From Amylostereum areolatum (lineage: Eukaryota; Basidiomycota; Agaricomycetes; Russulales; Stereaceae): a DNA stretch of 64,000 nucleotides. The stretch is from NCBI GenBank assembly GCA_012932865.1, contig SAXG01000007.1, positions 1,216,601 to 1,280,600 on the forward strand. Direction: 5' to 3'. This document shows, piece by piece, positions 20,343-50,700 of the stretch. Below the pieces are notes generated by a model. It worked only from the letters and a program-made list of their open reading frames with translations, made no database searches and was not told where the DNA came from. A program made the position numbers and the translations under genes. Within the stretch, counting starts at the first letter, position 1; every line of letters begins with the position of its first letter.

Positions 20343-21083
20343 ATGCCCTTATCTCCTGCATCTGATTCCCGCTCTCTGCCTCCACCCCCGTCGAACTCTG
20401 AAGACCGGCCCAGGTTTGCCCCTTCACTCCCATCTGTGTATGGAAGTTGACCAATGCACGCTTTTTCGCGCAGTGTTGCCAAGCCCCTCGACCTGGCGTC
20501 ACTCTCGGATCTGGAGAAGGATAACTTCCAAAGGTTCGACCCCCTTGAAGTCCGCTTCCAAGCCACCGACTGCTTTGTTATCGACGAGGCGCCGCACTCC
20601 CGCGGGCTCTTCTACATCTCTTCGCCCAACGCTTTCTGGATTCCCGAGATGCCCTGGCACCAGCCCGGAGACATCTTCACGTACTACAGTGACGGAATGC
20701 TTGGTGTGCACGAATACACGAAGTGGCCGCAAATCTGGGATCCCACCGAGCCCCATTTGGTCCTCGCTCCATTACACCCTTGTGTTTGTGACGTTATTCG
20801 CGACGATTTCGAACGCCTCCGGGTTCCCGCTTCCATCCAACCATCCCCCACCTATCGCAAACCTTGGGCCAACCCCGTCGATACAACTGGCGCACACGTC
20901 CAGTTCTTCTTCCAGGACTTCAAGCCCAGATGGTGGGAAAAAGTACTGGACACCGCCGCGGGCCCTCTCGGCCGCATCGGCGCTGAGCTCCCAGACCTCT
21001 TGAACAAGAGGGTATCGGACGTCTCGTTGCGCGCGCTTGCCATCGCTCAAACTCTCCACTCCGACCCCGACCATCCATCCCGT
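20343..21083 (+). pseudogene. Unrecognised host gene, 5' part, split by the 16.7-kb element
   Basis: ATG at 20343 (MPLSPASDSRSLPPPPS), an in-frame TGA at 20448-20450, and then a long open frame (MHAFSRSVAKPLDLASLSD ... FDPLEVRFQATDCFVID ... GDIFTYYSDGMLGVHEYTKW ... RVSDVSLRALAIAQTL) up to DPDHPSR at 21083, where the LTR begins. Removing the element and one CCGT copy continues the same frame at 37759 with RYVHQQIVRLSRAINKL. Similar proteins occur in agaricomycete genomes as far as I recall, but I know no function. The split and the TGA make it non-functional here unless the TGA is an error. Confidence 0.7.
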
Positions 21084-23264
21084 TGTCAGATCAAAAGTGG
21101 GTTTAAACACTTTCCTAGATATATCGGGTTTTCCTCTTTCCCAGATGATACCTAGTTGTTCGGGGGTTTAGGGAAATGTGTTAGGGGATATGCTACCAAA
21201 GGTTGCCTTTCCTTCCAATTGTTTTTCCAAACAATGGGGGGGGGGAATGTGTAAGGAGACGGTCACGGTAGACGGGCTCGGTACACGGACGGACGTGGAG
21301 ATACTGAATCTACCTTTCAGTGATAGACACAATATATAGAGAACGGAACTTAGATTATAACTTGACTTGCAGAGACTGAAACTTGAACTTGGATTGAACG
21401 GGGGACTAAACTGGGACTGAAACTAACTTGAGAACTGAGAGAGAACTAGCTGAAAACTGACTTGATCGTGGGAACTGGGGACTACTGAATAACTGGGTGA
21501 TGGGAACTTCTTGGGTATGGAACTTGGTACGTTATCTATCTCTGATGCCTGAAGCAGGGCCTTTATATAGTGCTCTAGCTTTGTTTGTGCACTGTTCGTT
21601 GTTGGCTATGCAAGGGCAGTGCAGTCCTGCCTCATGAGCAATCAACGCAGCCGTATCAGTGCCACACAGGCAACGTAGCCTTTTCTGATCTGCGGCTATG
21701 CTGACTACTTAAGGCAGTGCAGCGTTGAGAGAGGGGAGGATGGCAAACATAACCAAGGCGTACGTAGAAGTATGACATAGAGGGGGGGAGAGACAGTAAG
21801 CGACACGAGACAGCACAACCAGAGCCGGTAATCGTACAACGAGGCAAGCTAATCTAATAAGGACATCAACAAACGGAGTGCAGATAAGAAAGGCCTAGGT
21901 GAAGAGTCAGCTCCTACTGGCGAGTGTATAACCCAGCCTCCCTGTTCCGTCCTACCTCCGCCACCCGCTCCTGAACCTCGTGCGAGAGCTGGACCATGGC
22001 ATCGTACTTTGCCTCAGCGATCAGCTGGGAGAGTGCCGTCTCCACCGTCTCGTACGAGTTGGGATAGATTGCGTGCCGGATACGCTTGAAGTATCTAGCT
22101 ACTTCGTCTATGGGCGTCCAGGGATCTATCTTGTATATGCCTGGCAGATATGTTGAGGTAGGTGGACAAGCAGTGTATGGGGGTTGAGCGGCGTACCTGT
22201 GGCATTTCCCCAAGGGGGAAACACGAATACCGAGTACCCCTCGCACCCAGTGGCGTAGTAAAGCATCTGGGGGAGGTGGCGATCGACGAGACGGGCGATT
22301 GCTACAGCGACTTGCGAGGGGGGACCGATAAGACCGTCGCAACGAAGGTTGAAAGTCCAGTACCAGTCGGCGGCGATGGAACTGGAGACTGGGGTGTTGG
22401 GCTCAAGGTTGAGCGTCCAGTTGATATTGCAGATGATGAACACGATTAGTTCTGGTGGCAGGTTAGTGTGTGTTGCGAACAAGACAGACAGTGACGCACC
22501 AGCGGAGGTATGATTCTGCACTCGTCCTACATAGATTGCGCTCTGTCCGTTGCTCCCAAGGCACTCGCCGGCCGTTGCGTAGTAATGGAAGCCACATCCA
22601 GTGACGGCTTCGACGAGCATGGCGGGTCCGAGCTGCTGTGCCTTTCCCTCCACGATCCATAGACCATTTATCTCGACGGGGCCGGTGGACGGGTTAGGTC
22701 CCCATCCCGCGTTAAGGGCCTCATTGGCCTCCAGCCACTGCTGGTGCGAGGCGTCGTCCTTGACCAGTTTGGCCAGAACCTTGGCCCGTGTGGTCGCCAT
22801 GTCGTCGCGGGCCTGATAGGAAGGAATGGATGGAACCATATAGGGGTGGTTAATCAGCCTGTTCGACAAGACAGGATCGTAAATTACGTCGTCGACGTGG
22901 CCTTGGTGGGAGCGTAGGCGGGCGTCCAGGATTCGTGCCGAGGTGTACGGGTCGGGAGATGCTGACTGGCGTGTCGAGGGTGGAGCGGTTGAAGAGGGAA
23001 GGGGGGCAAACAGGCTGCTGGCAGGGGAGGAGGAGCTTTGCATGGTGTGAGAGATGGGGGGAACAAAGAGGGAGGTGTCTGCGTGCCGCCTGCCTATACG
23101 CTGCGGGATCAGCCTTCTGGATCTGCATTCTATTTTGGGCTTCTTGGATGCCGATCTTTGGTGTTTTCTTTGTCCGGCCCTTCCTGTCTCCGGGTGACTC
23201 TGCTCTGGATATTACCTGGTTGTTGTCTGTCCTGTCCCGCCCATAACCATTTGTGGGCGTGACA
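21084..23264 (-). repeat. 3' LTR (2,181 bp) of the giant element
   Basis: Repeated at 35574-37754. Sense layout: about 220 bp of upstream sequence, a 357-codon gene, then CTATATAAAG (21570-21561) as the probable promoter of the element RNA, leaving about 480 bp of R and U5. Visible differences from the other LTR are at about 22515 (T versus C), 23134 (T versus C) and 23210 (A versus C). Confidence 0.92.
21914..23043 (-). CDS. LTR-encoded protein of unknown function, 3' LTR copy
   Basis: Exon 23043-22197 starts MQSSSSPASSLFAPLPSS and ends PPWGNAT; a 56-bp intron (22196-22141, GTACGC..TGCCAG) joins GIYKIDPWTPIDEVARYFKR, ending AGLYTRQ before TAG at 21916-21914. Total 357 codons. The first 45 residues are Ser/Pro-rich. 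The middle has the look of a compact domain (LEANEALNAGWGPNPSTGPV, GFHYYATAGECLGSNGQSAI, LSVLFATHTNLPPELIVFII, DWYWTFNLRCDGLIGPPSQV). The C-terminus is helical (YETVETALSQLIAEAKYDAM). I recognise no family. The gene lies in U3 upstream of the element promoter, so it needs its own promoter or read-through. The other LTR has the same gene with one residue changed. Confidence 0.7.
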
Positions 23265-23313
23265 TCCGCGGGGGTCTTTAAATCAACCGTCCTCGGTTGA
23301 GCGCTCTTATAGC

Positions 23314-25086
23314 CTAGTCACTTTCCCAGATGTCGTCTTCAGCTGCTAGCGGCCTAGTCTTTCCCTTTTTCTGTATCTGTTTTTCTACGGTGTCAGGATT
23401 TGGAATGCGAGTAGATAGTTCTCGTAGGACCCTCCTATTTCTTGTAATGTAAGGGACCAGTCTGGATACAGCAAACTTTGTTGCTGATATTGCACCGTCT
23501 AACTCAGCCAATTTATACGCACCACCTTGTGTTTTTTCAATAACCTCATATGGTCCAAGGAACCTGTCTTTGTCTTTGCGGCTGTGGGAGGTTTCAATGG
23601 CATTATTCCTGACGAGCACAAGTTGGCCTGGTTGGAATTCATCTGTCCGGATGCGGTGCTTGAATCTGTCTTCAAACTGTGCTTTCGATGCAAACCTATG
23701 TTCGCGTAGCTTGTATGCGGCTTCATCAATGTCTGTCTGCCGCTTTTCTAGCTGTCGTATGCGTAGGGATAATAGCTCTGCAGATGACATTTTTGCTGAA
23801 TAGGCTGGGCCTAGAAAAGTTGCTTCCGTCAAGTCAAATGGATAAATAGGATGTGTTCCATGCAGGAGATAGTATGGGGAGAAGCCTGTCGACTGTGATA
23901 TTGTTATGCGGTCTGCATAGAAGGCTGCATGCACTTTAGCTGGCCAGTCTTGGACTTTTGATCCACATGTCTTGATGATGGATTCTCGGATTGTAAAGTG
24001 GCCGCGCTCCACTACTCCATTGGCCTTGGAGTTATATGGGGCAATCTTGACTTGAGGGACACCAAGACGTTCTACCAGTTCTTGAAACGCTCCGCGTACT
24101 TCTGGGCCATTATCTGTAACCACCTGTCGGACAACTCCATATCGACAGTAAATTTGTTCCCAGAAGAACTTCTTCAATGATCCTGCATTTGCATTTCGTA
24201 GTGCCCGCCCTTCAGACACGCGAGTAAGATCATCTCGTGCTGCCACAATGTACTTATACCCATGGGCCTGCGGCATATGCATGACATCAATATAGACCTT
24301 ATCCCATATTGCAACTGGGGTTGACACCGTGGGATGCCGCAGAGGCCATAGTGTTGAGCGGACCTGGCATTCATGGCAGGATCGGATATGCTGTTTAATG
24401 TCTGATAGCATGGCTGGCCAGTAGAAGCGCAGACTGATGGCTTTATGAACTGCCTCCACTCCTCTGTGTCCCATTTCCTCATGCGCCCCTAGCATAATGC
24501 TGTACCGGGTGTCTGGTGAAAAGATCACCTTCCTTGGGATTCCTTCTGCTTCCTTCCGAAACATGTCCTGGTCCCGTAAGAAAAATTTGGTAGCCTTGGC
24601 TACAAACCGCTTCTCTTGCTGGGTCGTTTGGACTGAGGGAGGATATTCCCAATTCTGTAAAAAATGCTTGATCTGATCCAGGGTAGATTCTATTGCTCCA
24701 ACAGGCAGTACAAGGCTGGCTTTGATGTTTGAGTGTTGGTAAACTGGTCGCGCTGACCGGTCTTGCAGCGTAACAAAGCGGTCTAGTGGAGCCTTAGGGA
24801 TAGAATACAGGGCAATGGCATCTAACCAGTCATCGTCATCTGGTTCATGTTCATCTTCTGAGGGCGGTCGTCTTGAAAGACCGTCGGGGCCTGAGAACCG
24901 CTTACCTGGTACATGAATTAATTCAAAGTCAAACATCTTGATTCCTTGTATCCAGCGGTTAATTGCAGCGTTCGGCTGAAGGTCTGGTGCATTGAGCATA
25001 CCTTTGATATAAAGGGCATCAACTTCTACATAGAAATTTTTGATCCCAATTATGTAGAGGCTAAAATGCTTCAACGCTCGGAACAA
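23314..25086 (-). CDS. pol: Pol C-terminal part of the giant element: RNase H end and integrase
   Basis: 590 codons open. Begins in the RNase H domain (FSLYIIGIKNFYVEVDALYI, LQPNAAINRWIQGIKMFDFE). The integrase follows: zinc finger with H-R-G-V and a C-H-E-C pair (near 24360), catalytic D in YIDVMHMP, D in VTDNGPEVRGAF and E in NGVVERGHF, in the DDE order that inserts element DNA into the host. The C-terminal part has the beta-rich GPYEVIEKTQGGAYKLAEL module and ends without a chromodomain, unlike copies A and B. A 1-nt shift near 25085 separates it from the rest of RNase H. Confidence 0.92.
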   Translation of the reverse strand: MFRALKHFSLYIIGIKNFYVEVDALYIKGMLNAPDLQPNAAINRWIQGIKMFDFELIHVPGKRFSGPDGLSRRPPSEDEHEPDDDDWLDAIALYSIPKAPLDRFVTLQDRSARPVYQHSNIKASLVLPVGAIESTLDQIKHFLQNWEYPPSVQTTQQEKRFVAKATKFFLRDQDMFRKEAEGIPRKVIFSPDTRYSIMLGAHEEMGHRGVEAVHKAISLRFYWPAMLSDIKQHIRSCHECQVRSTLWPLRHPTVSTPVAIWDKVYIDVMHMPQAHGYKYIVAARDDLTRVSEGRALRNANAGSLKKFFWEQIYCRYGVVRQVVTDNGPEVRGAFQELVERLGVPQVKIAPYNSKANGVVERGHFTIRESIIKTCGSKVQDWPAKVHAAFYADRITISQSTGFSPYYLLHGTHPIYPFDLTEATFLGPAYSAKMSSAELLSLRIRQLEKRQTDIDEAAYKLREHRFASKAQFEDRFKHRIRTDEFQPGQLVLVRNNAIETSHSRKDKDRFLGPYEVIEKTQGGAYKLAELDGAISATKFAVSRLVPYITRNRRVLRELSTRIPNPDTVEKQIQKKGKTRPLAAEDDIWESD

Positions 25087-26790
25087 GCCAATAGCTCTAG
25101 CTTGGGTTGCGAGTATCGCGCTTCAACTGCACTCATTGGTAATGATCCGTAACGTGCGGGTCGTCTTCTTCCTTCTTCATCTAGCTGGGACAGAATAAAT
25201 CCTACTGCGATATAACTGGAGTCAACGGACAGAATCACTGGGCGTTCGGACTTATAGTCAATTGGGCGGAGGGCAGGTGCGGCTGAAACCTTAGCTTTGA
25301 GGTCGTCGAATGCTTTTTGACGCCGTGTATCCCAGATAAANTTCTTCGTCCTTGCGTACCAATTCTGTTAGAGGTCGCGCAACTTCGAGTAGTTTTCGAT
25401 CCAAATACGAACTGTACCGCATAGGCCCAGAAAACCTCGTACCTCTGTGACATTCTTGGGCGCCGGCCAGTTCTGAATTTTTTCGGCTTTATTCTTCTCA
25501 GGGACCGTCCTTTTGGTGTACAGGTTTGTCCTAAAATTTCGACTTGCTGAGCGCATATCTGTGCTTTATCGGGATTGAACGTTCCTCCTGCAGATTTTAT
25601 GCGGTGCATTATGCGGTGGACATCCTGTGCGTGCTCCCATATAAAGCGCCGTATGCCCGGGTTATCTTTTAGCACTTCAGGGTTTCCAGATGAGTCCAGG
25701 TATGCTGACAAGGGTCCACGTATTGCTAAGTCATCAATGAAAATGTTTGCTGTGTGGGGGATTTCATCCTGCAGGATAAACACCATACTGTTTTGAAATT
25801 CTGCTGGCGAATTTGTGAAGCCCATAGGCATAGATGTGATCCGTAGTTGTCCTAATGGAGTCTGAAAGGCTGTCATGTCCCTGCTATCCTCATGTATTTG
25901 CGTGCGTCAAATCCCCAGAATAGGTCAAAGACGGTACTGCATTGGCGCCCGGCAAAGGGCTCTACGAAGTCATCTAGGGATTGGCGGGCATTCCAGAGTC
26001 TTTGATTGTTTACTCGATTTAGCGGCTGCAGATCGTGAACAATTCTGAGTTTACCATTTTTCTTGACTACACAAAACCAGCGTGAACGATAGCTTGATTG
26101 GCTGGGTTCATATACCCCACACCGGATTTTTTTCTTTCACAGATCAATAACTTTGTCTTGATGCCAGGTGGGATTGGGATGTTTCTTGTATTCCATGGCT
26201 CGTGGGGGACGGTCGGAATTTTGTATGGTGTAAAATAGTCGTCGCGTAGCGTACCCCGTTGTTCATCGGTGTATGCCATTGCTTCCTCATTTAATACCAT
26301 AATGTGTTGAAACAGCTTGAGTTCTTCTGGCCAGAGGAATCCGGCGGCATCTAATTTTAGTCTTGCTAAGCTCTCCATTGTTTGTCGCTCGGTGGGCACA
26401 AATTTTGGCGGGTTGACTGGCAGCGGGGCTAAAGATGCCAATGGATCTTCAGGGAATCTTCGTTCCACACGTGCTGACTGTGGGAAAGCAGTTGCCACTG
26501 GACGGACCTTTTTATCTACCTTCTTGTATGCAGTTAACACAAAGCCAGGTGGTTGAACAAGGTACAGTTCTTCCCCATCTATCTTGTTCCAGCTAACTGA
26601 GGCTTGATGATGTAATGTGTCATGTGCACGCAGATCTGGGACTGCCCGGATAATTCCGACCGAGGCTGATCTCAGATTCCGAGTCGTTTGATTGTTGGGT
26701 TGTCGCCGGAGTGATTCTTTCCTTCTTGATCCCGTTTGGCTTGTCGATCTGATCGGCACGTGATCGATCCATCAATCATAATCTTTCCCA
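25087..26790 (-). pseudogene. pol: Reverse transcriptase and RNase H of the giant element, frames broken
   Basis: Sense order: ASVSWNKIDGEELYLVQPPG (about 26590), FQHIMVLNEEAMAYTDEQRG (about 26280), IPIPPGIKTKLLICERKKSG, then KNGKLRIVHDLQPLN (about 26060), FDLFWGFDARKY, TAFQTPLGQLRITSMPMGFT (about 25870) and the catalytic box FIDDLAI (about 25740) in place of the usual YxDD. RNase H has AVDSS-like VILSVDSSYIAVGF (about 25225). Frames break near 26650, 26110, 25900, 25510 and 25085, and there is an undetermined base N at 25341. The domain order and FIDD match other agaricomycete Gypsy elements as I recall them. Not translatable as written. Confidence 0.85.
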
Positions 26791-27287
26791 TCTTAGTGAC
26801 TCCAGCTACGTCGCGTCGGAATGGGAGGGATACGATTGGTGCAATGTGAGGAGTGGAGAGGTAGAGTGCAATAGCGCGGGAGGGGACGGGTGGTGGTACA
26901 GATAGCGAAAGGCGGCCGGGTAAGATAATAGATGTGACGGAGGCGGGTGGGGGAGGTGGGCCGAGATCGGAACGCGCGTGAGTAAGTCCAAAGTGTGACT
27001 GGAAAGCATAGGTAATTAAATAAGCGGGGGGAGCGGAGACGGAGTGGTGATTGTACATAATAATAGCAGGGAGGGAGTCAGAGCGGGGGTGCATAGACGG
27101 CAGAGCGGCAAGAGAGAAGAGTGGGAACAGTGAAATATAAAAGGTACAGGTGAGTCCGCACGGATTATTCAAACAACGCGACGAGCCTGTGATCGAGATT
27201 AGCAATGCGACGATCTGACATCTACTGCTACGCACCATGGCGCCTGCACGGCCCCTACCACGGCCAATCCTGGAGGAAGCGCGTGGC

Positions 27288-30200
27288 CTAACGGACCCGC
27301 TCGTCATGGAGTCCGAGGAGCGGCCGGAGTTCCGGGTCTTCGAGGGTGCCGGACCGGATGAGGCTTGCGACGAGCTCGTCGCCCTGAAACCGCGAGCCGA
27401 TGAAGTTGAGGAGGGGACCCACAAGAGCCGGAATCCCGGCCCTGACGAGCCAGTCCGTGAGCGCGACGAGAAAAAGATGTTCTGTGCTGCGGAGGAAAGC
27501 GCACCATCCTGGTTGGGGGCTAACACAAAGCGAGAGTCCTGCAGCCCGAAAGGTGACTGGCCAGGCTTGGAGGCTGTTGACGAGGCTGCCGATGTAGCCC
27601 TCGACCGCCTCATTGGCCGGGAACTGCTGCTGCTTGTACTCGAGGATCGCCTCGGCGAGAAGGACGCCCGTGATGGCCACCAATCGCGCTGCTTGCCGGC
27701 ACGCCGAAAATGAGGACTGCGGGGGGGTGGGTGAACGACGAAAGGAGTGCTGTGAGGGTGAATCGTACGCAGCGGGGTTGAGAGCATGTTCGCTGCCTGC
27801 CGGAGCCGGCACCGCCACGTCTGGGCCTGCGTCGGCGACACGGAGCCTGTACCGTTTCTGGGGGGGACGTAGCGGGGGGGGGACGGGGGCGACGGTCTTG
27901 ACGTGCTGGCGGATGCGGGGGTGGTGCCGAGAACTGACGGGATTTTCGTAAGTGCGGTGCGAGCCAGACTCGATTGACGGAGCGGCGTACACCTCTGGGG
28001 CCTCGTCCCCGACGCCTTCCGCGGCCGCGCGTGTTGTCGTTGCGAGAGCCGAGGTGCTCCTGACGAAAGGGACGTATGCGCATGTGTGTGTGTGGCTCAG
28101 AGATTACGAACGCGCTCGATTGGCATCGAGGGCATACCTTGTTGTCGTCGAACTGGCTGGGCTCGGGCTTCTTGATCGTCGGCTGCTGGTACGGCGTCGG
28201 GTTGGCTGGGCGCGACGGTGCGTCGACGGAGGGGACATCTTTCGGGCTGCTTACCACACTCTCACATTCCGCGATCGTGATCAAGGACGGCATCGAGCCA
28301 CCTGATGACGAGCGAGACGGAGAGGTGGGGGCAGCCGAGTCGATAGGCTTGGGTATCGGCGACGCGAGCTGAGTTGTGTCATCGTCGGGAGCAGCTACGG
28401 GCTCAGGCGGTGTCGAGTCGTCCATGCTGTCGGTGTCTTCGTCCTTGAAGAACAGGGGTAGCGGAGAGGCGGCCGACACGTCGACGGAGGCGGCTGCTTG
28501 GTCTTTGGGAGACGGGGGGCCTTGCAGGGTGCCGTTAACAGCAAACGGGATCTTGATGTTGACGAGGTCCTCCATGTCGAGTGGCGAGAGAGCGCCGCCA
28601 TCATCCGAGCTGGACGAGTCCGCGTCGTTAGGGGACGTGTCGGTGGTGGAGAGGATGAGGGGAGACTTGGAGGCGGAGTCAGTTTTTGAAGTGTCGGAGG
28701 TGTCGGAGGTGTCGGAGTCGACGGAGTCGACCTCCTTGCACCAGCGGACGTAGGTGCGGAGCCGATAATCTGCCGCATCGAGAATCGAGCGGTGAGGTGT
28801 ACCGCCGAAAGTCTTCAAAAGGATACTGCAGAGTCGACGGAGGTACTGGAGAAGGCGGCTGCGATGGTCGGAGGACTTGACAAGTTGCTGGCCGAGGTTT
28901 GTGCCGCTGTGGATGCGCGAGACTAGGACCATAACATCCGAGATGGGGGGGTTCTCCTTTAGATCCCCTGCCGCGACGGCCTCTTTGATGACGAGCGGCG
29001 GCTCTCCCGCGTACAGCGGGTTCCCCGGAATATTCGGAGCCAACACCCAAACGGGGTGCGTCTCATCTATCGACCCGAGATACTCGAACTGTCCAGCCGC
29101 CGCAGCACGGCGCGGGCTCATGGCGGTTGGAGGCGGCGGGATCGACGGCGGGATGTCGACACGGATGGCGTTCGTGTGCGCCTGCCACATGCTGAGGCTG
29201 GCAGCGAGGCGCTGGGAGATGCCTGGGGTCATGACCTGCGGGCGCGGAGAGCGGGGGTCAATGGAGGAGGGTAGCGGGGGACGTGGCGTCGGGGGGCGTG
29301 TGTTTGCGGACTGTCCGAGGGGCTCGCCATCTTCACGTTGGTACTGCGTCGAGGGCAGGTGGAGTTGGAGACCAGGGTTACGTTTGGAGCGCAGAATTGG
29401 GGTGAAGTTATCGACGCGTCGGAGGCCGTTGAGAGAAGAGTAGCCGCCACCCGCGATGTCGAGCACGGACTCTTCGCCGTGGGAGGAGCCTTCGGTTGTA
29501 ATGAGAGCGGCGGTCGCCGACATGATCAGGTGGCCGTCGTCGTCGGAGCTGCCCGTATGGACTTGCGCGCGGATGAACGAGAGAACTTGTTGGTGTGTGT
29601 CGGGCCCGATTGCCTGCGGGGTGTCGAAGTGTGTCCATAGTCCATCCGGCGCGAGGACAGTGGCCGAGCGAACGGACTCGCCGTAGATGCTTGGGATCCG
29701 ATTCGCGAGAATGCGGACCGAGTCGGCCCGCACCGTTTCACGGATGATGTCGACCTCGTCAATGCTCGGGACAATAGGACGGATGTGCGTGTCTTGGCGG
29801 AGGAACAGCGGGATCGCTGGGTCGTGATAACCCGAGGACAACCCTACGGCGTGCGGGGTAAGTCCAGTGCAATTGACGCAACTGCTGGTTTGCTTACGGT
29901 TTTCGTACCAGGCAGCATCCATTTCCGTGAGTGAGAGCGGAGAGTTCGGCAGCGTGGCGTCGGGCATATCGACGTCCTGGTGGTCTTCGGGTAACGTGCC
30001 GAGGTCGGCCATGCGGCGTGCGTCCCCAGCGGATCCTTCCTCGACGCAGAGCGCGCGGAGGAAAAGGTCGCCTTTGAACGAAGTGGTCTTGATGCGCGTG
30101 CCGAGGAGTTCGCAATTGTCGGGGGTGAGAAAAGCTTGGATGTAGCGGGATCGGCGGACTAGTACCGGGTCCTTGAAGGACAGATCCAGCACACAGGCAG

Positions 30201-32028
30201 TCGTGCCATGGTCTTCGATCAAACTGAAGGCAAGGACGACGACGCTGTTGCTTTTGATCTCGACGGCGCGATCGTCATAGACGACCCCGGGTGCGCGTCC
30301 ACGGAGCAGTTGCTCTCGCCAGTCGGCGATAACCCGGATATTGAAACGACCAAGAGAAGACTGCGAGAGTGAGTCGGGGGAATGTTCGAAGGGGTCGAAA
30401 TGACTAACCATGGGCGAGACGGGAGTATCAGGGGAGATCATGGGGGCCTCGGCCAGCGAGGCGGCAGAGAAGGAATCTTGGGACATAGTGGTTGGGGGAG
30501 ATGAGAATGAGGACGAATAATCTGAAAGCGGTGATAAGTACGAGAGTGCAGACGGAAAAGTGAGGGAGGTGAGAAGATGGGGCTCACCAACGGCGGACGC
30601 GGGGGTCTTTATACGCCTTGTGCGCGCTAAAGACGTCAGTGGCCCGGCTTGCATGGGCAGTGCGTGGCCGTCAGCGGTGATGCTCTTGAGGGGAGCTCTC
30701 GACGGCTCGGGACCGTCGCGCACGGCGACTTCGTGGCGCAAAGGTACGCCGTTCGTTCCGTTTGCTATACTTACACTAACATTCACCTCGCCGTCTCCGT
30801 TCGCACAGGACATTAACCCGCGCGCGTTCGCGGCTGCACGCTCGGATGCGTAGGGGATTTCGACGGTAAGCCTTGCCTTCGTCATTTTGCGACCGACGCG
30901 CTTACACTGGTTGCGACGCGTAGGTGCTTCGAACGCGACTGGCCCGTCATTATTCTTAATGACCCCAGTGCGAACTTCGGAGGGGGGCCGCGGCGGCGTA
31001 CGAGGTCGGTCGGGGCCGTCAAGGGCTATGACCTTGTCGTGCTTTGGGCGAGACTCTGGTGCGTTCGTATTCTTTTCTTTTTGTTCGAGACTGACTTTGT
31101 CCTTGGGGGGACCCTCAGCGATCCTCGCGCCCGCAATGGGCATGGAACGGGGCCCGTTCGGTTGGTACTGTGGCCGTTCGCGTTTCCACCGCGTCACAGG
31201 TTCATGTTCGGCATTCCTCTCCACGGCGGTGACATCCTGACCTCGCCTTTTCTCGCAGACTCTTGGCTGATGCCGCGCGCATTTGCGTTCGCCGATGCTG
31301 CGTATCGAAGGGCCTCGGTCGTGTCGTATCGTCAGTACGATTTTTCCTGGCCGCCGCCCGGTCTCGTCATGCTGATCCAGGCGTTTTTCGCTAGGTTCGC
31401 AACAATTTCGCGCGCGACTTTGCTCGCCGCGGTCGGTGCAGGCTGATGTCTCGCCAAACCTGTGTTCCGAGTTTTCGTGTTCGGGTCGCTCGCCGTCGGC
31501 TCGAGATCTGGGGTTCTGCTCGCGCGCGCGTTCGCTAGCGGCGGTGTTATTTTGCTCGATTAATGCGCTATCTGTTGGGGATCCGTCGGCGGTCGGTGTA
31601 TTGCCTGTTCCCCATGCCACTTTCCGTTGAATAGGCGGCTTGTTTACTTGCTCTGGGGTTTTCTTGCTGTGTGCGCATTTATTCATTTCTACTGGCGAAC
31701 GGTCATCGACGACCTCGAATATTCGGCCTGGCTTTGGTGTCGGCGCGGCTTGATGAGCCGACGAATCCTGTATCGAAATCTCTGGTGATCGGATGCTTGG
31801 TGGAGAAGCCACATATCTTGGGCGAATATTTGATCCTAGCCTTGGGTGTAATATGACCGTGTTGCATGCTATGGACTGACTCATTTTTGCGGCTTCGTTT
31901 CGCTCTCGTTGGTGCTGCTCTACCCGCAGACGCACTAGGTTCACGGCGTCGGTTTCTTCTTCCTCGGTTCGGGCCATGAATTGCTGTATGTTCTGGGTAG
32001 CCACATTGTGTCCTTGTAACATGACGTC
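27288..32028 (-). CDS. Extra large gene inside the giant element, function unknown
   Basis: An open frame continues in phase from the protease (IRYDV) across the solo-LTR site as MLQGHNVATQNIQQFMARTE and stays open to 27610 (1,474 codons). Two in-phase introns are likely: 30587-30522 (GTGAGC..TTTCAG) and 28137-28060 (GTATGC..CGTCAG). After the second, the coding frame shifts by one base to that of 27992-27288 (ARLVAITGVLLAEAIL, WCAFLRSTEHLFLVALTDWL, VGPLLNFIGSRFQGDE). Residues to about 480 are charged and low-complexity. From MSQDSFSAASLAEAPM (ATG at 30486) the composition is that of a folded protein (RVIADWREQLLRGRAPGVVY, VVVLAFSLIEDHGTTACVLD), followed by a Ser/Asp-rich tail. I recognise no domain. 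It may be a captured host gene; whether it starts at 30486 or is fused to Gag is open. Confidence 0.55.
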
Positions 32029-32487
32029 TGTCATGAACGGTCTATAATTTTCTTTTTTACTTTACATCGGTTACACGCTTTAGGACTTATTGGCTTATCA
32101 CCGGTCCGGCTCCACTTTGGCCCGGACCCGGTTCATCTATATCCCACTCGGGCCCACGTGACTCATCTCGGCCCGGGTCTGACTCCTTTCCCTTGACTCA
32201 TGCTGTACAATACTGACTCATGCTGTGCTCTTTTACATACGACTGCTTACTTATACTAGGTCTGCTTACTGATCGCCGTGTATCGGTTGCTTACCTAAGT
32301 CTCTCTCCTCTTGTGTATATAAGGCTCGCTCTCGCTGTACATATCCCTTATCTCGAGCTAGTCAATTCTACCGACTTTGCTTGCTTTCCCTCGTCTGTCG
32401 CCGTGTCTGATCGGCTCCCCTCTGTCGTCCTCATCTTCTAGTCAGCTGTGTCGTAACTTGGTGCTGTCGCACTAGTCGTTGCTGACA
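32029..32487 (+). mobile_element. Solo chromovirus LTR nested in the giant element
   Basis: 459 bp, the reverse complement of the A and B LTRs (starts TGTCATGAACGG, ends GTTGCTGACA), flanked by a perfect 5-bp duplication ACGTC at 32024-32028 and 32488-32492. It splits the Gag-protease frame: DRIRYDV on one side and MLQGHNV on the other join in phase once it is removed. It is the only member of this LTR family here with an intact target duplication. Confidence 0.95.
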
Positions 32488-35390
32488 ACGTCGTAGCGAA
32501 TGCGATCTGGATTTTGTTTGTCCTTAAACACGAGATATGTTCCGGCTTTCCGTTCATCGATGCACACCAGGTTGTCGCGCTGCCATGGCCGTCCTAATAG
32601 AAGGTCAAATGGAACATGATCTGCTGCCCATAAGTGCGCGTGAGTTTCTAATGCACCGAAATGGATTCGAACATCCTGGACAAGGCCTACCAGTTTCTCT
32701 TCTCCTCCGTTTGCATCGGTCATATGTACTACCGACTGACGATCCATAGGGAGGCAGACAAATTTATCTGCAAGTTCGCGCCGAATAATATTGAGTTGTG
32801 AGCCTGAGTCCATTATGGCGGTCATGAGTGCTCCATTTATGTTGACCTGAAACTGAAGGAGACGATCATGCAGGACTGTGGACCGAGGAGAAATGGCTGT
32901 CAGGCCCAGAGATGTTAGATTGATCTGAGCCGCGCGTTCCGGTCCCACATTGTGCGTGGGTCCAGTTTCCTTGAGGTCCCTTTTTACACTCTTGAGCTTC
33001 ATATTTTCCACCAACAAGCTGCCCAATTCCCTCGACACACCCAGGATATCACCAATCGGCAAGGATACCGATGTTCCTAGTATATGTGCGAGTACTTGAC
33101 GAGGGTCCGCAACTTTCGATATGGTGGACTGACGTATAGGTACCTTGCGCGTGCGTGACTGGAGAAGGTCTGCCGGTTCTCGTATAATTTCTTCTACCAC
33201 AGGGCTAGATATACGAACTTGTTTATGTGGGCGGTCCTCTACGTCATCCATAAAGGCATCCTCATTTGTCGGGTCAAATGTCTGGGGAAACACGTCTATT
33301 GGACGCTCTGGGAGTTCACTAAGCTGGCTTCTAGTAGGCTCTTCTGGATTAGAGACAGGTTCTGAACCTTTGGGTGCACTGGTTGGGTTATTACGCGTGG
33401 GCGGGTGTCCTGTACGTTCGCCAGGAACCTTATTTAGCATTTTAGGGCGCACCTTGGAGGTCCCTGCTTCCTGCGATTCCTGGGCTCGGTGACTAGGAAC
33501 AGGTACACGGTTTGAACGCCGAATGCCGATCTGCTCATCAACATTCTCGCGTGCTTCCCGAGTGGTCTTCTTTCCACGTTCCGCCTTGTATGAATGGACT
33601 GGACGAGGCTCGTATTTTTCATCTTCCGAGTCACTTTCAGGGCCGGACCAGGATCTGGACGGGAGTGATCTTGCATGGACACCGTACACATCTGCTGATG
33701 GCTCAGAAAATTCTTCATCGTCTTGCCTGCCAATTGCGAACCGCACCAGATTTGCATGAACGGGGTTGGAATTGAAAGTGCTAGCCTTGCCTCTGTCACG
33801 CATTGCCGCTTGGACTAGGGTTTCCCCTGTTGTACGCCGTATGATTGAACCATCTGGGAAGGCGTAGCGTCCATTCGCGTCGCGAACAACCTTACCTTGC
33901 GTGACCAGGCCTGCTAACTTTGGACATATGTTCATTGAATGCCCCTGTTCACCACACCCATAACATCCGGTTGGTCGCGGTGGCGCTGTGTTGGACATAT
34001 GAGGGGGTAATGGGCGAGGCGTAGAGGTAATGTTGGGTCGAGTGTCTTGAGCTACTGGGGCCACTTGGTAGTTCCGCGCTGAAGATTTGTAGCCGCTGTA
34101 TGGAACCGGGTCTGAGGCGGGCATAGCCATTCCAACCATGGGCATTGGGAGGGTCTGACGCCACTTCTCATCAATACGACAGATCTGGTAGTGGAGAATT
34201 GCATACCGAGGTTCATTAATCTTGAGCGACCCCAACTGCATGACCAAGTCTTCAACACCGTCAGTGTTCTGAGGGTGCACTTTCCGCCTGGGGTCCGCAC
34301 TCACCTTTGCTGAGGAAACTGCGGGCTTGCGGGTCTCGCCTTTCTTATGCCTAGACTTGTCATACTTGGTAGGTTCTTCTGCGGGGTACTCATCGTCAGA
34401 ACTTATGGCTTCTGAATCGGTATTGGTGTCTTCACTCCACCCGGATTCATCTTCCGAATCTGGGTCGCTGAGATCTTCATGAAATGTGCCACGGGCTAGG
34501 AGGAACTCGGCCGCCTTGTCAACTTCAGTCTTGTCCCAGGGATTGGCCATGTTATGGGTGGGGTGCCAGTTGATAAGACATTGCTCAATACGCTTACGGA
34601 GTGTAGGACATATGCCTTGCCAAAGCTGCAAGTTGATCTGCCGCCTGGTCATACGTCCGTTCTTGTACACCCATCCTGCCTTAGTATTGAACTTGAGGAG
34701 GTACTGACGCCACTCGCTCAGATTGCGCATCTTCCTGTGGCGCATCTTCCTTACAAATGCCTTGACGTCACTTGGCTGGTATCTTTTCTCGTGGCGGTCT
34801 GCATCAAATGCCTTTAGGATTTCTCTCTTGAGGCTATCCCAGTCACGTATGGCATAGGAATCCATAGCTTCAATGGCATCTCGCACCTTGTCTGAACAGT
34901 AACGCAAAATTCCAGAGCAGCGTGCCGCATCAGTGAACACGTGATGACTCATACAGAGGGCCTCAAACTGTTCAATGAACTGTTTGACCCGTCGATGACT
35001 GCCATGGAAGGTCTTGAGGGCGTACTTGGATTGACGGTCAGGTAGAATGCCGGTCTGAGACGGTTGGACATAAGGTGCAGGGTACGCAGATGGGTATCCA
35101 GTGGGAAACGCGTGGGGCTGTGTGTTTGCTTGAGAATAATATGCTTGAGGGAACGGTTGGGGAATAAATGGGGTTGCTTGAGGGGAGGTCATATAATTAG
35201 GTACATGTGCTGAATGCTGTGATGATCGAGGGGAAATATCGGGAGATGGGTGAAGGGAACCTGCTGGAGAGACGTGGGCACTGGCGTGCTCATTGTCCAT
35301 ATCAGAAGGCCCTATAAATATACGTTGAGATGTTTGGCCACCCTGCCCTGCAGGGTTGTTGCCAGATAAATTAATAGACTTGCTTGACAT
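32488..35390 (-). CDS. gag: Gag-protease of the giant element, cut by the solo LTR
   Basis: Probable start MSSKSINLSGNNPAGQGG at 35390; the frame is open back into the LTR but without an earlier ATG. Domains: Pro/Ser-rich N-terminus; retrotransposon Gag helices (TFHGSHRRVKQFIEQFEALC, MDSYAIRDWDSLKREILKAF, about 35010-34770); an acidic stretch (SDPDSEDESGWSED); one CCHC knuckle CYGCGEQGHSMNIC (about 33967-33930); a basic and disordered spacer; and an aspartic protease with AIMDSGSQLNIIRREL (about 32825-32775) and LLLGRPWQRDN. Gag and protease are fused in one frame with no stop or slip site between them. The frame runs to the solo LTR boundary and resumes beyond it. Confidence 0.9.
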
Positions 35391-35552
35391 ATTCTGTGGT
35401 CGGATTCTTCGTCCAATTGCTCGTATTGCTTGGCCGGTTGACGTGGTCGATGAGAACGTAGCACTTGATATCGGAGATACAGACGTTGGGAATGGAGAAA
35501 CAGGAGAAGGATGAGACAAGTTGGTAGGATCCACTATGATTAACCTCAAAGA

Positions 35553-35571
35553 CCCCTCGCGGTGGGCTCCA
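35553..35571 (-). promoter_or_regulatory. tRNA-type primer-binding site of the giant element
   Basis: Two bases inside the 5' LTR the sense strand reads TGGAGCCCACCGCGAGGGG, that is TGG (complement of a tRNA CCA end) followed by a sequence that would pair with a tRNA 3' end. I cannot name the tRNA from memory. This contrasts with the self-priming site of copies A and B. Confidence 0.7.
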
Positions 35572-35573
35572 GA

Positions 35574-37754
35574 TGTCAGATCAAAAGTGGGTTTAAACAC
35601 TTTCCTAGATATATCGGGTTTTCCTCTTTCCCAGATGATACCTAGTTGTTCGGGGGTTTAGGGAAATGTGTTAGGGGATATGCTACCAAAGGTTGCCTTT
35701 CCTTCCAATTGTTTTTCCAAACAATGGGGGGGGGGAATGTGTAAGGAGACGGTCACGGTAGACGGGCTCGGTACACGGACGGACGTGGAGATACTGAATC
35801 TACCTTTCAGTGATAGACACAATATATAGAGAACGGAACTTAGATTATAACTTGACTTGCAGAGACTGAAACTTGAACTTGGATTGAACGGGGGACTAAA
35901 CTGGGACTGAAACTAACTTGAGAACTGAGAGAGAACTAGCTGAAAACTGACTTGATCGTGGGAACTGGGGACTACTGAATAACTGGGTGATGGGAACTTC
36001 TTGGGTATGGAACTTGGTACGTTATCTATCTCTGATGCCTGAAGCAGGGCCTTTATATAGTGCTCTAGCTTTGTTTGTGCACTGTTCGTTGTTGGCTATG
36101 CAAGGGCAGTGCAGTCCTGCCTCATGAGCAATCAACGCAGCCGTATCAGTGCCACACAGGCAACGTAGCCTTTTCTGATCTGCGGCTATGCTGACTACTT
36201 AAGGCAGTGCAGCGTTGAGAGAGGGGAGGATGGCAAACATAACCAAGGCGTACGTAGAAGTATGACATAGAGGGGGGGAGAGACAGTAAGCGACACGAGA
36301 CAGCACAACCAGAGCCGGTAATCGTACAACGAGGCAAGCTAATCTAATAAGGACATCAACAAACGGAGTGCAGATAAGAAAGGCCTAGGTGAAGAGTCAG
36401 CTCCTACTGGCGAGTGTATAACCCAGCCTCCCTGTTCCGTCCTACCTCCGCCACCCGCTCCTGAACCTCGTGCGAGAGCTGGACCATGGCATCGTACTTT
36501 GCCTCAGCGATCAGCTGGGAGAGTGCCGTCTCCACCGTCTCGTACGAGTTGGGATAGATTGCGTGCCGGATACGCTTGAAGTATCTAGCTACTTCGTCTA
36601 TGGGCGTCCAGGGATCTATCTTGTATATGCCTGGCAGATATGTTGAGGTAGGTGGACAAGCAGTGTATGGGGGTTGAGCGGCGTACCTGTGGCATTTCCC
36701 CAAGGGGGAAACACGAATACCGAGTACCCCTCGCACCCAGTGGCGTAGTAAAGCATCTGGGGGAGGTGGCGATCGACGAGACGGGCGATTGCTACAGCGA
36801 CTTGCGAGGGGGGACCGATAAGACCGTCGCAACGAAGGTTGAAAGTCCAGTACCAGTCGGCGGCGATGGAACTGGAGACTGGGGTGTTGGGCTCAAGGTT
36901 GAGCGTCCAGTTGATATTGCAGATGATGAACACGATTAGTTCTGGTGGCAGGTTAGTGTGTGTTGCGAACAAGACAGACAGTGACGCACCAGCGGAGGTA
37001 TGATTCCGCACTCGTCCTACATAGATTGCGCTCTGTCCGTTGCTCCCAAGGCACTCGCCGGCCGTTGCGTAGTAATGGAAGCCACATCCAGTGACGGCTT
37101 CGACGAGCATGGCGGGTCCGAGCTGCTGTGCCTTTCCCTCCACGATCCATAGACCATTTATCTCGACGGGGCCGGTGGACGGGTTAGGTCCCCATCCCGC
37201 GTTAAGGGCCTCATTGGCCTCCAGCCACTGCTGGTGCGAGGCGTCGTCCTTGACCAGTTTGGCCAGAACCTTGGCCCGTGTGGTCGCCATGTCGTCGCGG
37301 GCCTGATAGGAAGGAATGGATGGAACCATATAGGGGTGGTTAATCAGCCTGTTCGACAAGACAGGATCGTAAATTACGTCGTCGACGTGGCCTTGGTGGG
37401 AGCGTAGGCGGGCGTCCAGGATTCGTGCCGAGGTGTACGGGTCGGGAGATGCTGACTGGCGTGTCGAGGGTGGAGCGGTTGAAGAGGGAAGGGGGGCAAA
37501 CAGGCTGCTGGCAGGGGAGGAGGAGCTTTGCATGGTGTGAGAGATGGGGGGAACAAAGAGGGAGGTGTCTGCGTGCCGCCTGCCTATACGCTGCGGGATC
37601 AGCCTTCTGGATCTGCATTCTATCTTGGGCTTCTTGGATGCCGATCTTTGGTGTTTTCTTTGTCCGGCCCTTCCTGTCTCCGGGTGACTCTGCTCTGGCT
37701 ATTACCTGGTTGTTGTCTGTCCTGTCCCGCCCATAACCATTTGTGGGCGTGACA
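35574..37754 (-). repeat. 5' LTR (2,181 bp) of the giant element
   Basis: Same ends and content as 21084-23264, including the LTR gene and the CTATATAAAG box at 36060-36051. CCGT follows at 37755-37758, matching 21080-21083. Confidence 0.92.
36404..37533 (-). CDS. LTR-encoded protein of unknown function, 5' LTR copy
   Basis: Exons 37533-36687 and 36630-36404 with the same 56-bp intron as the other copy. The protein differs at one residue in the segment YVGRVRNHTSAG (Gln in the 3' LTR copy). Being in U3 of the 5' LTR, this copy lies outside the element RNA and would be expressed only from a promoter in the first 220 bp of the LTR or in flanking DNA. Read-through from the plus-strand host gene would be antisense to it. 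Confidence 0.7.
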
Positions 37755-37758
37755 CCGT

Positions 37759-39419
37759 CGCTACGTACATCAACAAATTGTCCGCCTGAGCCGTGCCATC
37801 AACAAGCTGTTGGACGGCTTGCAAACAATGGTCGATGCCATCATGTGGTTCCGGGAGGCGCAACGCCTTATTATAGACATCAGGGCGTGGGCGGACTACC
37901 AGGAACACTTGAAGCCGGTATGGGATTACAACCTCGCAGAAGGCCCTTCTCTACCATGCTATCCCTCTTATTCCATGCGCGGTGCCATAACGTCTCAACT
38001 GTCCGTTGTTGAGCGTCTCTACTCGCTGGTCATCCCTGTTTGGTGGGTTCGCCCCCGCCACACCCTCACGACGGCCACCAAGTTCGCCACTTGGCCTTTG
38101 GAGAAAACTTGGAAAGCATCGGCACGTCTCGGACCTCCGTCATCGGCGAAATATCCATCCGCGCCCCCACCCGGCTGGACAGCGTCAACCTTGATACCAC
38201 AATGGCCTCTGTTCGCGACCAGCTTCGTCGATTCACACTGGCCAATCGGCCGTCTGTCGCCGCGTCGTGCCCCGCCCTCGAAGAAACGCCTGCAGCCGCC
38301 GCCGCCGAAAATGTTTCTGCCCCACCCTCGATTGTGGCAACCTCGCGACGAACCTTCCGTGCAGTCTTACCCGACTGCCCGGAATGGGCCCCCCCCTTCG
38401 AAGGCGTGTGGGAGCGTGCATGGCGCTCCCTTCCTGCCCTCAAAAATCCCAAAGTTCAGCAGGCCTCTACGCATGCTCTCCCACCCCCATCACTCTTCAT
38501 GGGCATCCGCCGAGACAATATGAGTTGGATCCATAATTGGTTGCGTGTGCGTGAGTGGGTCCTTTCCACGGCGACAGGAAAAGTAGATGGCAGTGCACAC
38601 AAATGGACCGCTCAACAATGGAAGTGGGTGCTGGAAGGGAGTTTTACACAGCTGGAAATCGAACCTCGAAGCCGCATCCAGCCCAAATCGCCTCGGAAGG
38701 ACATACTGCGCCTCCCCCCGTCGACGTCGTCCCAAGTTCCTGTCGCCCTCGGCAAGCGCGCAGCAGCCACTCGTCCCCCCGCAGAAGAGCACCCGCCCCA
38801 AAAGAAGGGAAGGGGTGAGCGCAATCAACTCGCCAAGAGGAAGGAGAGTCGCCTTGCTCAACGATTGGACATCCATGTTCATTTCGGAGTCATTGGAGGA
38901 TTTGCGCCATACTCGCGCGATGCCGTGGTCCACTGGCGAGGGTGCGATCTCAGCGCGGATAAACTCAGCCGTGATACTTCAACATGGGCAGAAGTTGTCT
39001 GGGAGCTCTCTGTGGATGAGTTCCGGTTGGAATTCATGCGCCTGGACCTGCAACTGGTTCCGGATCTAAATGCTTCTCCGGAGGGTCGACGTGCACGCCA
39101 GGATGCCATCCAGAAGGTTTGGCGCACGGAGGGGGACGTCCTTGTGAGCTTTGCTGACGGCGTCCACCCTCACGACGCGGCGATACGCCCGCAAGGGTAC
39201 GATCGGTGGGCGGCTGTCATGGGTGCATGGACGGCCTCCGCCTCCATTGACACTCTACCACCACGTCCTTCCCCCGGTACGCAGGAAAGCCACGATCGCT
39301 GGCACGTCGAGGTTGTACGCCACTATTGTCTGCACTTTCACTCCGCCCTGGGCCGCCTCCCCACCATTCCCTTCACATGCCCAGCTTCCCTCCCGCGCCT
39401 CTCCTTGGCGCAGATTTGA
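37759..39419 (+). pseudogene. Unrecognised host gene, 3' part, with one frameshift
   Basis: Continues the frame of 20343-21083 after the insertion: RYVHQQIVRLSRAINKLLDG, IMWFREAQRLIIDIRAWADY, VVERLYSLVIPVWWVRPRHT. A 1-nt loss near 38082 moves the coding frame to RHLAFGENLESIGTSRTS and on through WIHNWLRVREWVLSTATGK, WTAQQWKWVLEGSFTQLEI, HPPQKKGRGERNQLAKRKES (nuclear-signal-like) and LDIHVHFGVIGGFAPYSRDA to RLSLAQI and TGA at 39417-39419. The whole protein would be about 800 residues. Trp-rich segments recur. No family function known to me. Confidence 0.65.
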
Positions 39420-39488: not shown

Positions 39489-39946
39489 TGTCAGCAACGA
39501 CTAGTGCGACAGCACCAAGTTACGACACAGCTGACTAGAAGATGAGGACGACAGAGGGGAGCCGATCAGACACGGCGACAGACAAGGGAAAGCAAGCAAA
39601 GTCGGTAGAATTGACTAGCTCGAGATAAGGAATATGTACAGCGAGAGCGAGCCTTATATACACAAGAGGAGAGAGACTTAGGTAAGCAACCAATACACGG
39701 CGATCAGTAAGCAGACCAAGTATAAGTAAGCAGTCGTATGTAAAAGAGCACAGCATGAGTCAGTATCGTACAGCATGAGTCAAGAGAAAGGAGTCAGACC
39801 CGGACCGAGATGAGTCACGTGGGTCCGGGCGGGATATAGATGAGCCGGGTCCGGGCCAAGGTGGAGCCGGACCGGTGATAAGTTGATAAGTCCTAAAGCG
39901 TGTAACCGATGTAAAGTAAAAAGAAAATTATAGACCGTTCATGACA
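39489..39946 (-). repeat. 3' LTR of chromovirus B
   Basis: 458 bp, TGTCAGCAACG to TTCATGACA; contains the pol stop (39939). Differs from its partner at a few bases, for example CAACCAATACAC versus CAACTAATACAC. Confidence 0.95.
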
Positions 39947-42900: not shown

Positions 42901-44121
42901 GGGAGCTTGTCGAAGTCGTCTTTGTCAAAGATGTCCTTGAATTCGTGGTACGCCGTTGGGACTCGCTCAGAGAAGGTCTGTTCCTTTTTCTTAGCGTGCT
43001 CTTCAATTGCAATGTCCGATGCATGGGTCCGGATGTGGTATGTCGCTTTGTAGCCATCCCAGTCGAAAGCAAACAGCTGCTCGTCCTTTTCCATGTGGAC
43101 TGGCTCTTCCTCCTCCTCTTCATCATCATCGATATTGAGGAGGGGAGGGGGACGAGAGCAGCTGATAGGGCATCGGTCGAATTCAATTGACCCGGATTTC
43201 CAGTCGATGTGAGGGTTGTGCTTCTTTAGCCACTCATGTCCAATGAAAAGGTCCGTATCTCCTAGATTGGAGACCGCCAGGTCAATGTTTTCTTCATGGT
43301 CTTGAATATTTAGGCGAAGTGTGACATATTCCGTGATGGGACCTCCTGTGTTGAGAGTGCCGTCTGCATTTCGTACTGGGATTGGGCGAGCAGTCCGTCG
43401 CGTGGGGATGTGATTTTCCTGTACAAACTTCGTGTTGATACACTGAGCCAGTGCAACCACTGTCCAGGAGTGCGAGAGCTTTGACAATGCGCTTGGAATC
43501 TACCACCAGTTGTGTGGGAATGACCGTTTGTTCCTTGGCGCTGGAGGAGCGTATGAACTGCATAGGAGTGGCGAGCTCTAGTAGAGCTTGACATGCTAAC
43601 TCGTCTCCCATGCCAGTTATTTCCTTGATGGCTTCATAAGTAGCCTCGTCACGGCGTCGGTGGTGTGTCCAGATGCGAAGGATTGCAATCGCACTTTCGG
43701 GTTTGTCTTCCCTTAAGCGACGAAGCGTCCATTGAGCCGTTCCAGGTGCCATATAACATGATTTGGGCGCCGTGCCCCTTCCATCGCACGGCGTTGTCCC
43801 TGACTTCACAGGGTCCATATCCAAAACCGAGTCCGTATCCAAAAGCCGTATCCAAAACTGAAGCCGAAACCGATGCCGTATCCAAAGCCTGAAGGCTCAC
43901 AAATCGAAGCCTGAGTATCTAAAATAACAACGGGACGCGTGCCCGTACCGATAGAGTCCGTAAGAGAAGTCATAATGGGGATATCCCCCGTAGTAGTACA
44001 GTCCGAATCAACCATGCGCATATGTAAACGAGAACCAGGCCACCGATGGCGCAACAAAACCAGACGAGCGAGAAACAGAAACTTGGGCTTCAGATGCCGT
44101 GTACATCGTCAGCCCCCTCAA
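39939..44121 (-). pseudogene. pol: pol of chromovirus B: protease, RT, RNase H, integrase, chromodomain
   Basis: The stretch from RNase H ([20 protein letters not shown]) through the integrase zinc finger, the DFVMP / SDRGSVF / QTDGQTERS catalytic blocks and the chromodomain (VEKIIDSKKVGRGFKYLVKW) is one open frame, 41800-39939, which copy A lacks. RT with VVVYLDDILIF is open from about 42475 to 41930. Extra single bases break the frame near 41810, 41927, 42478, 43443 (right after LLDSGCTGS-like codons of the protease) and about 44050. The chromodomain is predicted to read histone H3 lysine methylation, as in other fungal chromoviruses. Confidence 0.93.
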
Positions 44122-50692: not shown

Positions 50693-50700
50693 GGTCTATC

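Follow-up and report, generated by a model that had tools for sequence, protein, structure and literature searches.

A putative U3 gene in the long terminal repeats of giant Ty3/gypsy-type retrotransposons of Amylostereum areolatum

The gene inside the long terminal repeats and its copies in the genome

The DNA considered here is a stretch of 64,000 nucleotides from contig SAXG01000007.1 of the basidiomycete Amylostereum areolatum (the window, to whose positions all element coordinates refer); it contains a 16.7 kb retrotransposon on the minus strand, running from 37754 to 21084, whose two long terminal repeats (LTRs), of 2,181 bp each, both hold a protein-coding gene. The 3' LTR, downstream in the sense of the element, runs from TGTCACGCCC to TGATCTGACA and lies at 21084..23264, and the 5' LTR lies at 35574..37754, both on the minus strand. 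Their ends read TGTCA..TGACA in both, and a 4-bp duplication, CCGT in the orientation of the window, flanks the element on the left (21080..21083) and on the right (37755..37758). The pair differs at 3 of 2,181 sites (22517, 23134, and 23209); the insertion is thus recent. With TG..CA ends, a short target duplication, the pol order protease, reverse transcriptase (RT), RNase H, integrase (from Pfam on pieces of families A and B, described below, and from frame order), and the Ty3-G polyprotein as best PDB match of the RT (E 5e-42, for the second open reading frame, ORF2, of family B; a match only, with no tree), the element is, on its sequence, a Ty3/gypsy-type (Metaviridae-like) LTR retrotransposon.

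As for the gene, it occupies positions 222-1351 of each LTR, in the sense of gag-pol, and a frame of 357 residues (MQSSSS...LYTRQ) stays open in either LTR, the only difference between the two proteins being a Q/R replacement at site 22517. An earlier note, made from the letters of this DNA, had reported both LTRs, the intact frame and its single change, all of which are confirmed; it had also read the gene as two exons coding for 357 residues, and here the frame and the 56-nt GT-AG intron stand as described, but an extra 48-nt intron is very likely. Three exons and a product of 341 amino acids are thus the likeliest structure, with 357 amino acids if intron 1 is retained. In copy 1, on the minus strand, exon 1 is at 22500..23043, the predicted intron 1 (48 nt, in frame, GTGCGT..CTAAC..CAG) at 22452..22499, exon 2 at 22197..22451, intron 2 (56 nt, GT..AG) at 22141..22196, and exon 3, up to the TAG stop, at 21914..22140. 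Copy 2 spans 36404..37533 on the same strand, with exons at 37533-36990, 36941-36687, and 36630-36404 and introns at 36989-36942 and 36686-36631.

The earlier note had described the gene of one element; it is present in that element, but it belongs to at least three LTR families and one relic of this genome, whose loci are designated by C-labels. A DNA search with the LTR gave 34 matches, from full length down to 41 bp, and the protein search at least 72 matching stretches, the counts from protein searches being lower bounds. Family A, that of the window element, includes two further full-length elements (C109 and C1) as well as five solo LTRs flanked by exact duplications (C138, C172, C34, and C95 twice); the frame is intact in 7 of its 13 gene copies, namely the two of the window, the first listed LTR of C109, C34, C95 at 1627931, C138, and C96:160852, in which an extra base falls in intron 2. 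Family B has LTRs of about 2,442 bp, with a pair at C112 that is 14.9 kb apart and apparent solo LTRs at C102, C7, C105, C149, C156, C47, and C139. B' has LTR positions 54-1635 in common with B at about 89% (83% for C94:52731) and not the remainder; its solo LTR at C100 measures about 2.55 kb. For B and B' together, 20 matches start no later than residue 22 and reach residue 357, and 19 of them are stop-free (C13 has two stops); C163 and C45:287759 have one stop each, and about six more loci are fragments. Two B' gene copies, C161:46937 and C161:58214, have equal search scores and lie about 10 kb apart in opposite orientation, unlike a normal LTR pair. Finally, the old relic, C96:166218, has a recognisable LTR start, TGTCATATCCGCAAATGG, before the gene, and carries small indels (+4, -4, -1) relative to the A reference; its classification as a pseudogene, suggested by an in-frame TAG, was dropped because this stop lies inside the predicted intron 1.

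Homologous genes are found at the same LTR place in A, B, B' and the relic, and solo LTRs keep the gene, so every full-length insertion amounts to two gene copies and every solo LTR to one. The possibility raised in the earlier note, that other copies of the LTR lack the gene or show it broken everywhere, did not materialize: they carry it, and many are intact. Searches of the genome with two divergent homologs gave no further family, and no relatives were found in viral contigs (two alignments) or in one genome per bacterial or archaeal species, collections that hold few or no fungi.

The three-exon structure is suggested by several lines of evidence. The intron 1 motifs GTGCGT, CTAAC, and CAG, at gene positions 545-592 in family A, have their equivalent in family B in a 48-nt stretch with GTACGT, CTGAC, and CAG that otherwise has little sequence in common with A; the in-frame TAG of the relic and the in-frame TGA of C163 both fall inside these 48 nt, and neither aligned copy has a stop once they are removed. 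Intron-like sequence was also seen by eye at this place in the divergent homologs C96:168353 and C96:163587, and C156:163424 is without 16 codons there. Intron 2 is absent from family B, where the codons flanking its place align gap-free; in C96:168353 an intron was read, again by eye, at the place of intron 2 also.

Selection and descent of the LTR gene

The ratio of nonsynonymous to synonymous divergence (dN/dS) was calculated by the Nei-Gojobori method on spliced frames, leaving out the merged split copies (C45, C106, and the second C109). Between A and B, dN was 0.38 and dS 2.3, with a ratio of 0.16; A versus the relic gave 0.05, a rough value with a saturated dS of 2.5. Within the A group, the ratio was 0.09 for A and C138, 0.13 for A and C96:160852, and 0.12 for C138 and C96:160852; on the B side, it was 0.12 for B and B' (C105), 0.14 for B and C94:52731, 0.16 for B and C163, and 0.16 for the B' copies C105 and C100. 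Fisher p values ranged from 8e-10 to 3e-65 for A compared with B, C96:166218, C138, and C96:160852 and for B compared with C105 and C94:52731. Closer B lineages gave 0.19 (B and C149), 0.25 (B and C156), 0.27 (B and C56), and 0.25 (C149 and C139), with p from 2e-5 to 3e-3, and C94:52731 versus C163 gave 0.43 (p 0.016). Regarding the pattern of change between B and B', codon positions 1, 2, and 3 differ by 3.7, 3.2, and 9.0%, and the 5' and 3' noncoding parts by 13.9% and 22%. These comparisons show purifying selection on the sequence of the LTR gene between lineages; the dN/dS check proposed in the earlier note came out far from neutral (0.05-0.16 for the most diverged). The closer the pair, the higher the ratio tends to be, as would be predicted if selection acted on a replicating element; with one insertion, seen in two copies (C149 and C47), near neutrality, replicating elements appear to be where selection acts.

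As for descent, the LTR proteins of A and B are identical at 189 of 341 residues (55%), the pieces of the pol frame at 58-80%, and gag-protease at 38-45%; for two pieces of the extra region of ORF1, aligned over 344 and 147 residues, identity is 33-35%. The LTR protein diverges to a degree between gag and pol, which fits a gene already present in the element before the separation of A and B. At the DNA level, the A and B LTRs match over 562 bp of the gene, plus a further stretch of about 100 bp that takes in the 3' end of the LTR and the primer site.

Probable placement in U3, the protein, and its possible role

Each lineage inspected has a TATA-like site 50-75 nt ahead of the ATG: TATAGG in A, TATAAA in B, TATAAG in the B' copy C105, and TATATATA in the relic. 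In copy 1 it is at 23093..23098 on the minus strand, 55 nt before the ATG, and it is the presumed promoter of the LTR gene itself. Family A has a second TATA, TATATAAAGG, at about LTR position 1696, downstream of the gene (21569-21560, and 36059-36050 in the 5' LTR, minus strand); this is the presumed promoter of the genomic RNA, with the boundary between the unique 3' region (U3) and the repeat region (R) just downstream. Family B has a second TATA-like site, TATTTAAGG, at about LTR position 2013, with AATAAA at 2180, and B' (C100) has TATATAAAG, with AATAAA about 275 nt after it. A complete frame is found between the LTR start and the presumed genomic promoter, a position like that of the sag gene of mouse mammary tumour virus (MMTV), and because the genomic TATA is downstream of the gene, this would lie within U3 in A, B, and B', in agreement with the earlier note.

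With this layout, the TATA promoter of the LTR gene itself, close to the 5' end of U3, would give a short spliced mRNA, and the second TATA further down would drive the genomic RNA, which would carry the gene solely in its 3' U3. If the introns were always spliced from the genomic RNA, new copies would be without introns; intron 1 is kept in families A and B and intron 2 in A, so much of the genomic RNA must stay unspliced, and a single slip would account for the absence of intron 2 from B.

Regarding the protein, it has no Pfam match at the curated cut-off (for 18 members, no listed family is better than E 0.039) and no NCBIfam relative; in the PDB the best E is 0.99 by single-protein search, and the profile search returned 0 matches at E 10, so that the earlier note, which recognised no family, was right, and the profile searches it proposed agree with it. 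Pfam likewise gives no match of the LTR protein to the retroviral superantigen, Nef, or Bel families. It is acidic, with an isoelectric point of 5.9-6.5; no stretch resembles a transmembrane segment (maximum 19-residue Kyte-Doolittle mean of 1.24-1.56), and the hydropathy scan found no strongly hydrophobic N-terminus. The core conserved in A and B comprises WIVEGKAQQ, GECLGSxGQSAIYVG, and SSSIAADWYW. It resembles neither an envelope nor an enzyme of a known family, nor does it seem to be a factor dedicated to the repeats of its own LTR. A regulatory or host-directed accessory protein is rated, tentatively, as the most likely.

The explanation regarded as best, and as quite probable, is that the LTRs of these giant Ty3/gypsy-type elements hold a bona fide U3 protein-coding gene for an undescribed accessory protein, trans-acting and probably host-derived. 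The protein, soluble, acidic and of roughly 340-360 aa, would be provided in trans, given that each full-length insertion has two copies of the gene and each solo LTR one, and selection would work via the replication of the element. The protein might enable genomic RNA that still bears introns to avoid splicing and be exported from the nucleus, an idea that arises from the survival of the introns in the families, or it might counter silencing. The gene would have been taken from the host before A and B split. In this regard, C96:168353-169540 (L016:6354-7540) is a single-copy homolog, about 30-40% identical, with an open first exon and, by eye, apparently multi-exon, in a region without other repeats; judging from these traits, it is possibly a host gene ancestral to the LTR gene, or a domesticated copy.

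Several observations weigh against this explanation or parts of it. All the relatives come from one genome, and the host origin rests on the single homolog C96:168353, which may be element-derived instead. Six of the 13 family-A copies are disrupted by a stop, frameshift, or insertion: a stop is present in both LTRs of C1 and in C172, a 1-nt deletion in C95 at 1542100, and insertions split the other C109 LTR and C45. The stops of C1, C172, and C178 are outside the 48-nt intron, so that stops in the copies do not mark introns alone. Close pairs give weak signals of selection, with 0.48 for A and C34 (p 0.27) and 0.37 for A and C172 (p 0.10); C149 and C47, in a small sample of 10 nonsynonymous and 5 synonymous changes, give 0.64 (p 0.38), and since their flanks are common to both, the difference arose after insertion and looks like near-neutral drift from then on. 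AATAAA was not found in the family-A LTR, so that the placement of R in A is tentative. Finally, structure prediction, which the earlier note had proposed, yielded two AlphaFold models of the LTR protein, with predicted local distance difference test (pLDDT) scores of 36 and 43, both unusable.

Among the alternatives, the one that survives best, though unlikely, holds that the element encodes in the LTR protein its own transcription activator, which would bind repeats just upstream of the genomic promoter; foamy viruses encode such transactivators. Family B has eight copies of ACTGTGC/GCACAGT, seven of them extending to GACTGTGC/GCACAGTC, at positions 1852-1980 of the C112 LTR, just before TATTTAAGG, and its top 7-mer occurs 8 times, against no more than 5 in any of 300 dinucleotide shuffles; A and B' have short repeats of their own at the same place. 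Yet the repeats of A are not above shuffles (3, versus a mean maximum of 2.2 and a highest value of 4), and the C100 (B') protein is 92% identical to that of B even though the 3' LTR part and the repeat motif differ (of TGCTTAGTAA type, with no shuffle comparison).

A more specific proposal, entertained only tentatively and as rather unlikely, sees in these giant fungal Ty3/gypsy elements a class not described before, in which each LTR is a self-contained gene cassette with its own promoter, an intron-bearing accessory gene, and then the genomic promoter; a U3 protein acting like Rev, Rem, or CERV would keep the U3 introns in the genomic RNA, either by holding back splicing or by aiding export. 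If true, it would explain why repeated rounds of reverse transcription have not removed the introns, and the protein would go on being supplied in trans from solo LTRs.

Selection could also operate for the host, or through a selfish effect on it (e.g., a poison-antidote gene spread by LTRs), and not through transposition. The gene is open in many solo LTRs, which are unable to transpose alone, and an intron with a length that is a multiple of three could yield two isoforms; this reading is nonetheless decidedly improbable, because several family-A copies are broken and the same-site pair C149/C47 is near neutral after insertion (0.64, p 0.38, from a small sample). Even less credit is given to the idea that one LTR lineage picked up a host gene accidentally and has carried it as a passenger of no use to the element: the introns and the divergent, single-copy, multi-exon-looking homolog C96:168353 do suggest a host origin, but dN/dS stays at 0.05-0.16 over element lineages down to 55% protein identity, and the protein is conserved where the LTR DNA of A and B matches only in part of the gene and in the roughly 100 bp of the 3' end and primer site. 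Lastly, an overlapping or accidental frame, made likelier by the 56% GC of the window and by some overlap in other frames, is highly improbable in view of the codon-position-specific divergence, the dN/dS tests with p down to 3e-65, and the splice-like motifs common to A and B.

The rest of the element, precedents, and implications

Apart from the LTRs, the element has a candidate primer-binding site, TGGAGCCCACCGCGAGG, at 35555..35571 on the minus strand, 2 nt inside the 5' LTR and identical in family B. A 15-base part of its complement occurs at nine sites of the genome, five of which adjoin an LTR end (C150, C109, C1, C112, and C94:760414); by their position, three more (C105:368922, C132, and C161) would lie near B' LTRs, and one, C149:28588, is unexplained and does not adjoin an LTR matching A or B. 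No primer tRNA gene was recognised among these nine sites. The gag-protease part of ORF1 lies at 32472..35657 (minus strand, stop to stop; Pfam Asp_protease_2 at 8e-6, zf-CCHC at merely 0.19), and the remainder of ORF1, at 27610..32061 on the same strand, is a large extra region from protease to RT with no Pfam match. Inside ORF1, at 32029..32488, sits a 460-bp solo LTR of a different, ~7-kb element family, with a 5-bp duplication ACGTC, which is not present in the C109 and C1 copies. The RT region (25235..26771, minus strand) has interrupted frames in the window copy, with one N at 25341, and is open in the C109 copy; the part of ORF2 with the RNase H end and the integrase is at 23314..25122 on the minus strand (Pfam Integrase_H2C2 3e-15, rve 8e-9). 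In the C109 copy the ORF1 and RT frames are both long and open, with 2,684 and 1,234 codons stop to stop. The extra coding region between protease and RT exceeds 1,400 codons both in the window element and in the family-B ORF1 of C112; without a Pfam match in either, it is a second unusual trait of these elements. The 3' end adjoining the LTR (GACCCCCGCGGA in A) is not purine-rich, and a comparison of sequences by eye suggests that the genomic RNA may pair end to end.

Regarding insertion sites, 16 of 18 testable insertions have exact 4-bp target duplications (C150, C109, C1, C138, C172, C34, two at C95, C112, C102, C7, C105, C149, C156, C139, and C100), all of the form NCGN; CG dinucleotides make up 7.0% of the long stretches examined, so that 15 of 15 by chance would have a probability of 4e-18, and these integrases appear to insert at CpG. 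The two inexact flanks are GCGT/GTGT at C47, the same site as C149, and CCGA/CCAG at C96. Around the window element, inspection by eye shows a reading frame that is open on either side of the insertion (20451-21083 and 37759-38523) and keeps its phase through the duplication, so that the element probably interrupts a gene. Elsewhere in the window, 7368-14852 and 39489-46994 are two copies of the different ~7-kb element, with end repeats of more than 400 bp and 97-100% alike in most matched blocks, and the 460-bp insert of ORF1 is a solo LTR of this element. Finally, a tRNA gene at 49412-49485 is closely followed by a perfect inverted repeat (49686-50693), with arms of 224 nt and a spacer of 560 nt.

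As for precedents, the sag gene of MMTV encodes a superantigen and is an entire accessory gene in U3, duplicated by reverse transcription; the likeness lies in the whole gene being in U3, but MMTV is an infectious animal retrovirus, whereas the present case is a fungal Ty3/gypsy element with predicted introns in the U3 gene and no superantigen match in Pfam. Accessory genes that overlap U3 are also found in primate lentiviruses (nef) and foamy viruses (bel/bet); there the overlap with the LTR is partial, and the LTR protein has no Pfam match here.

Among plant elements, Retrosat2, RIRE3, and RIRE8 of rice exceed 12 kb, have LTRs of at least 3 kb, and carry an extra frame of unknown function, ORF0, which evolves faster than gag-pol (average Ka, the nonsynonymous divergence, 0.257 versus 0.078); they resemble the present elements in their long LTRs, their extra frame, and an LTR start, TGTCACACCC, close to TGTCACGCCC, but ORF0 lies upstream of the gag-pol frame and is not assigned to the LTR in the text consulted (PMC3485330). 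Gene23 of Grande, Retand, and ORF3 of bdelloid elements are accessory frames beyond gag-pol, that of Grande with its own promoter; bdelloid LTRs measure 159-551 bp, and the available parts of these sources mention no frame inside an LTR (PMC7264820, PMC5408684). CERV, an extra protein of the Ty3/gypsy element Cer1 of C. elegans, is required for export of the genomic RNA, which must escape splicing; it is similarly an additional protein of a Ty3/gypsy element, but, in the excerpt consulted, its frame is a 3' one not placed in the LTR, which has about 492 bp in Cer1 (PMC10309623). The open-access literature, in the parts covered, yielded no fungal retrotransposon whose LTR contains a gene, a result that argues only weakly for absence; within the reach of these searches, an accessory gene at this place is unprecedented for LTR retrotransposons.

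In conclusion, LTRs are usually treated as regulatory sequence, and a gene family fixed in the LTRs of several retrotransposon families, clearly under purifying selection and with introns that outlast reverse transcription, would extend coding within U3 beyond animal retroviruses. Each solo LTR would become a potential gene copy, and a route for the capture of host genes would be suggested. Such a family would also confuse gene annotation, as some thirty open "genes" of this genome are parts of LTRs, and the elements offer a testable case for how intron-bearing genomic RNA avoids splicing in fungi.

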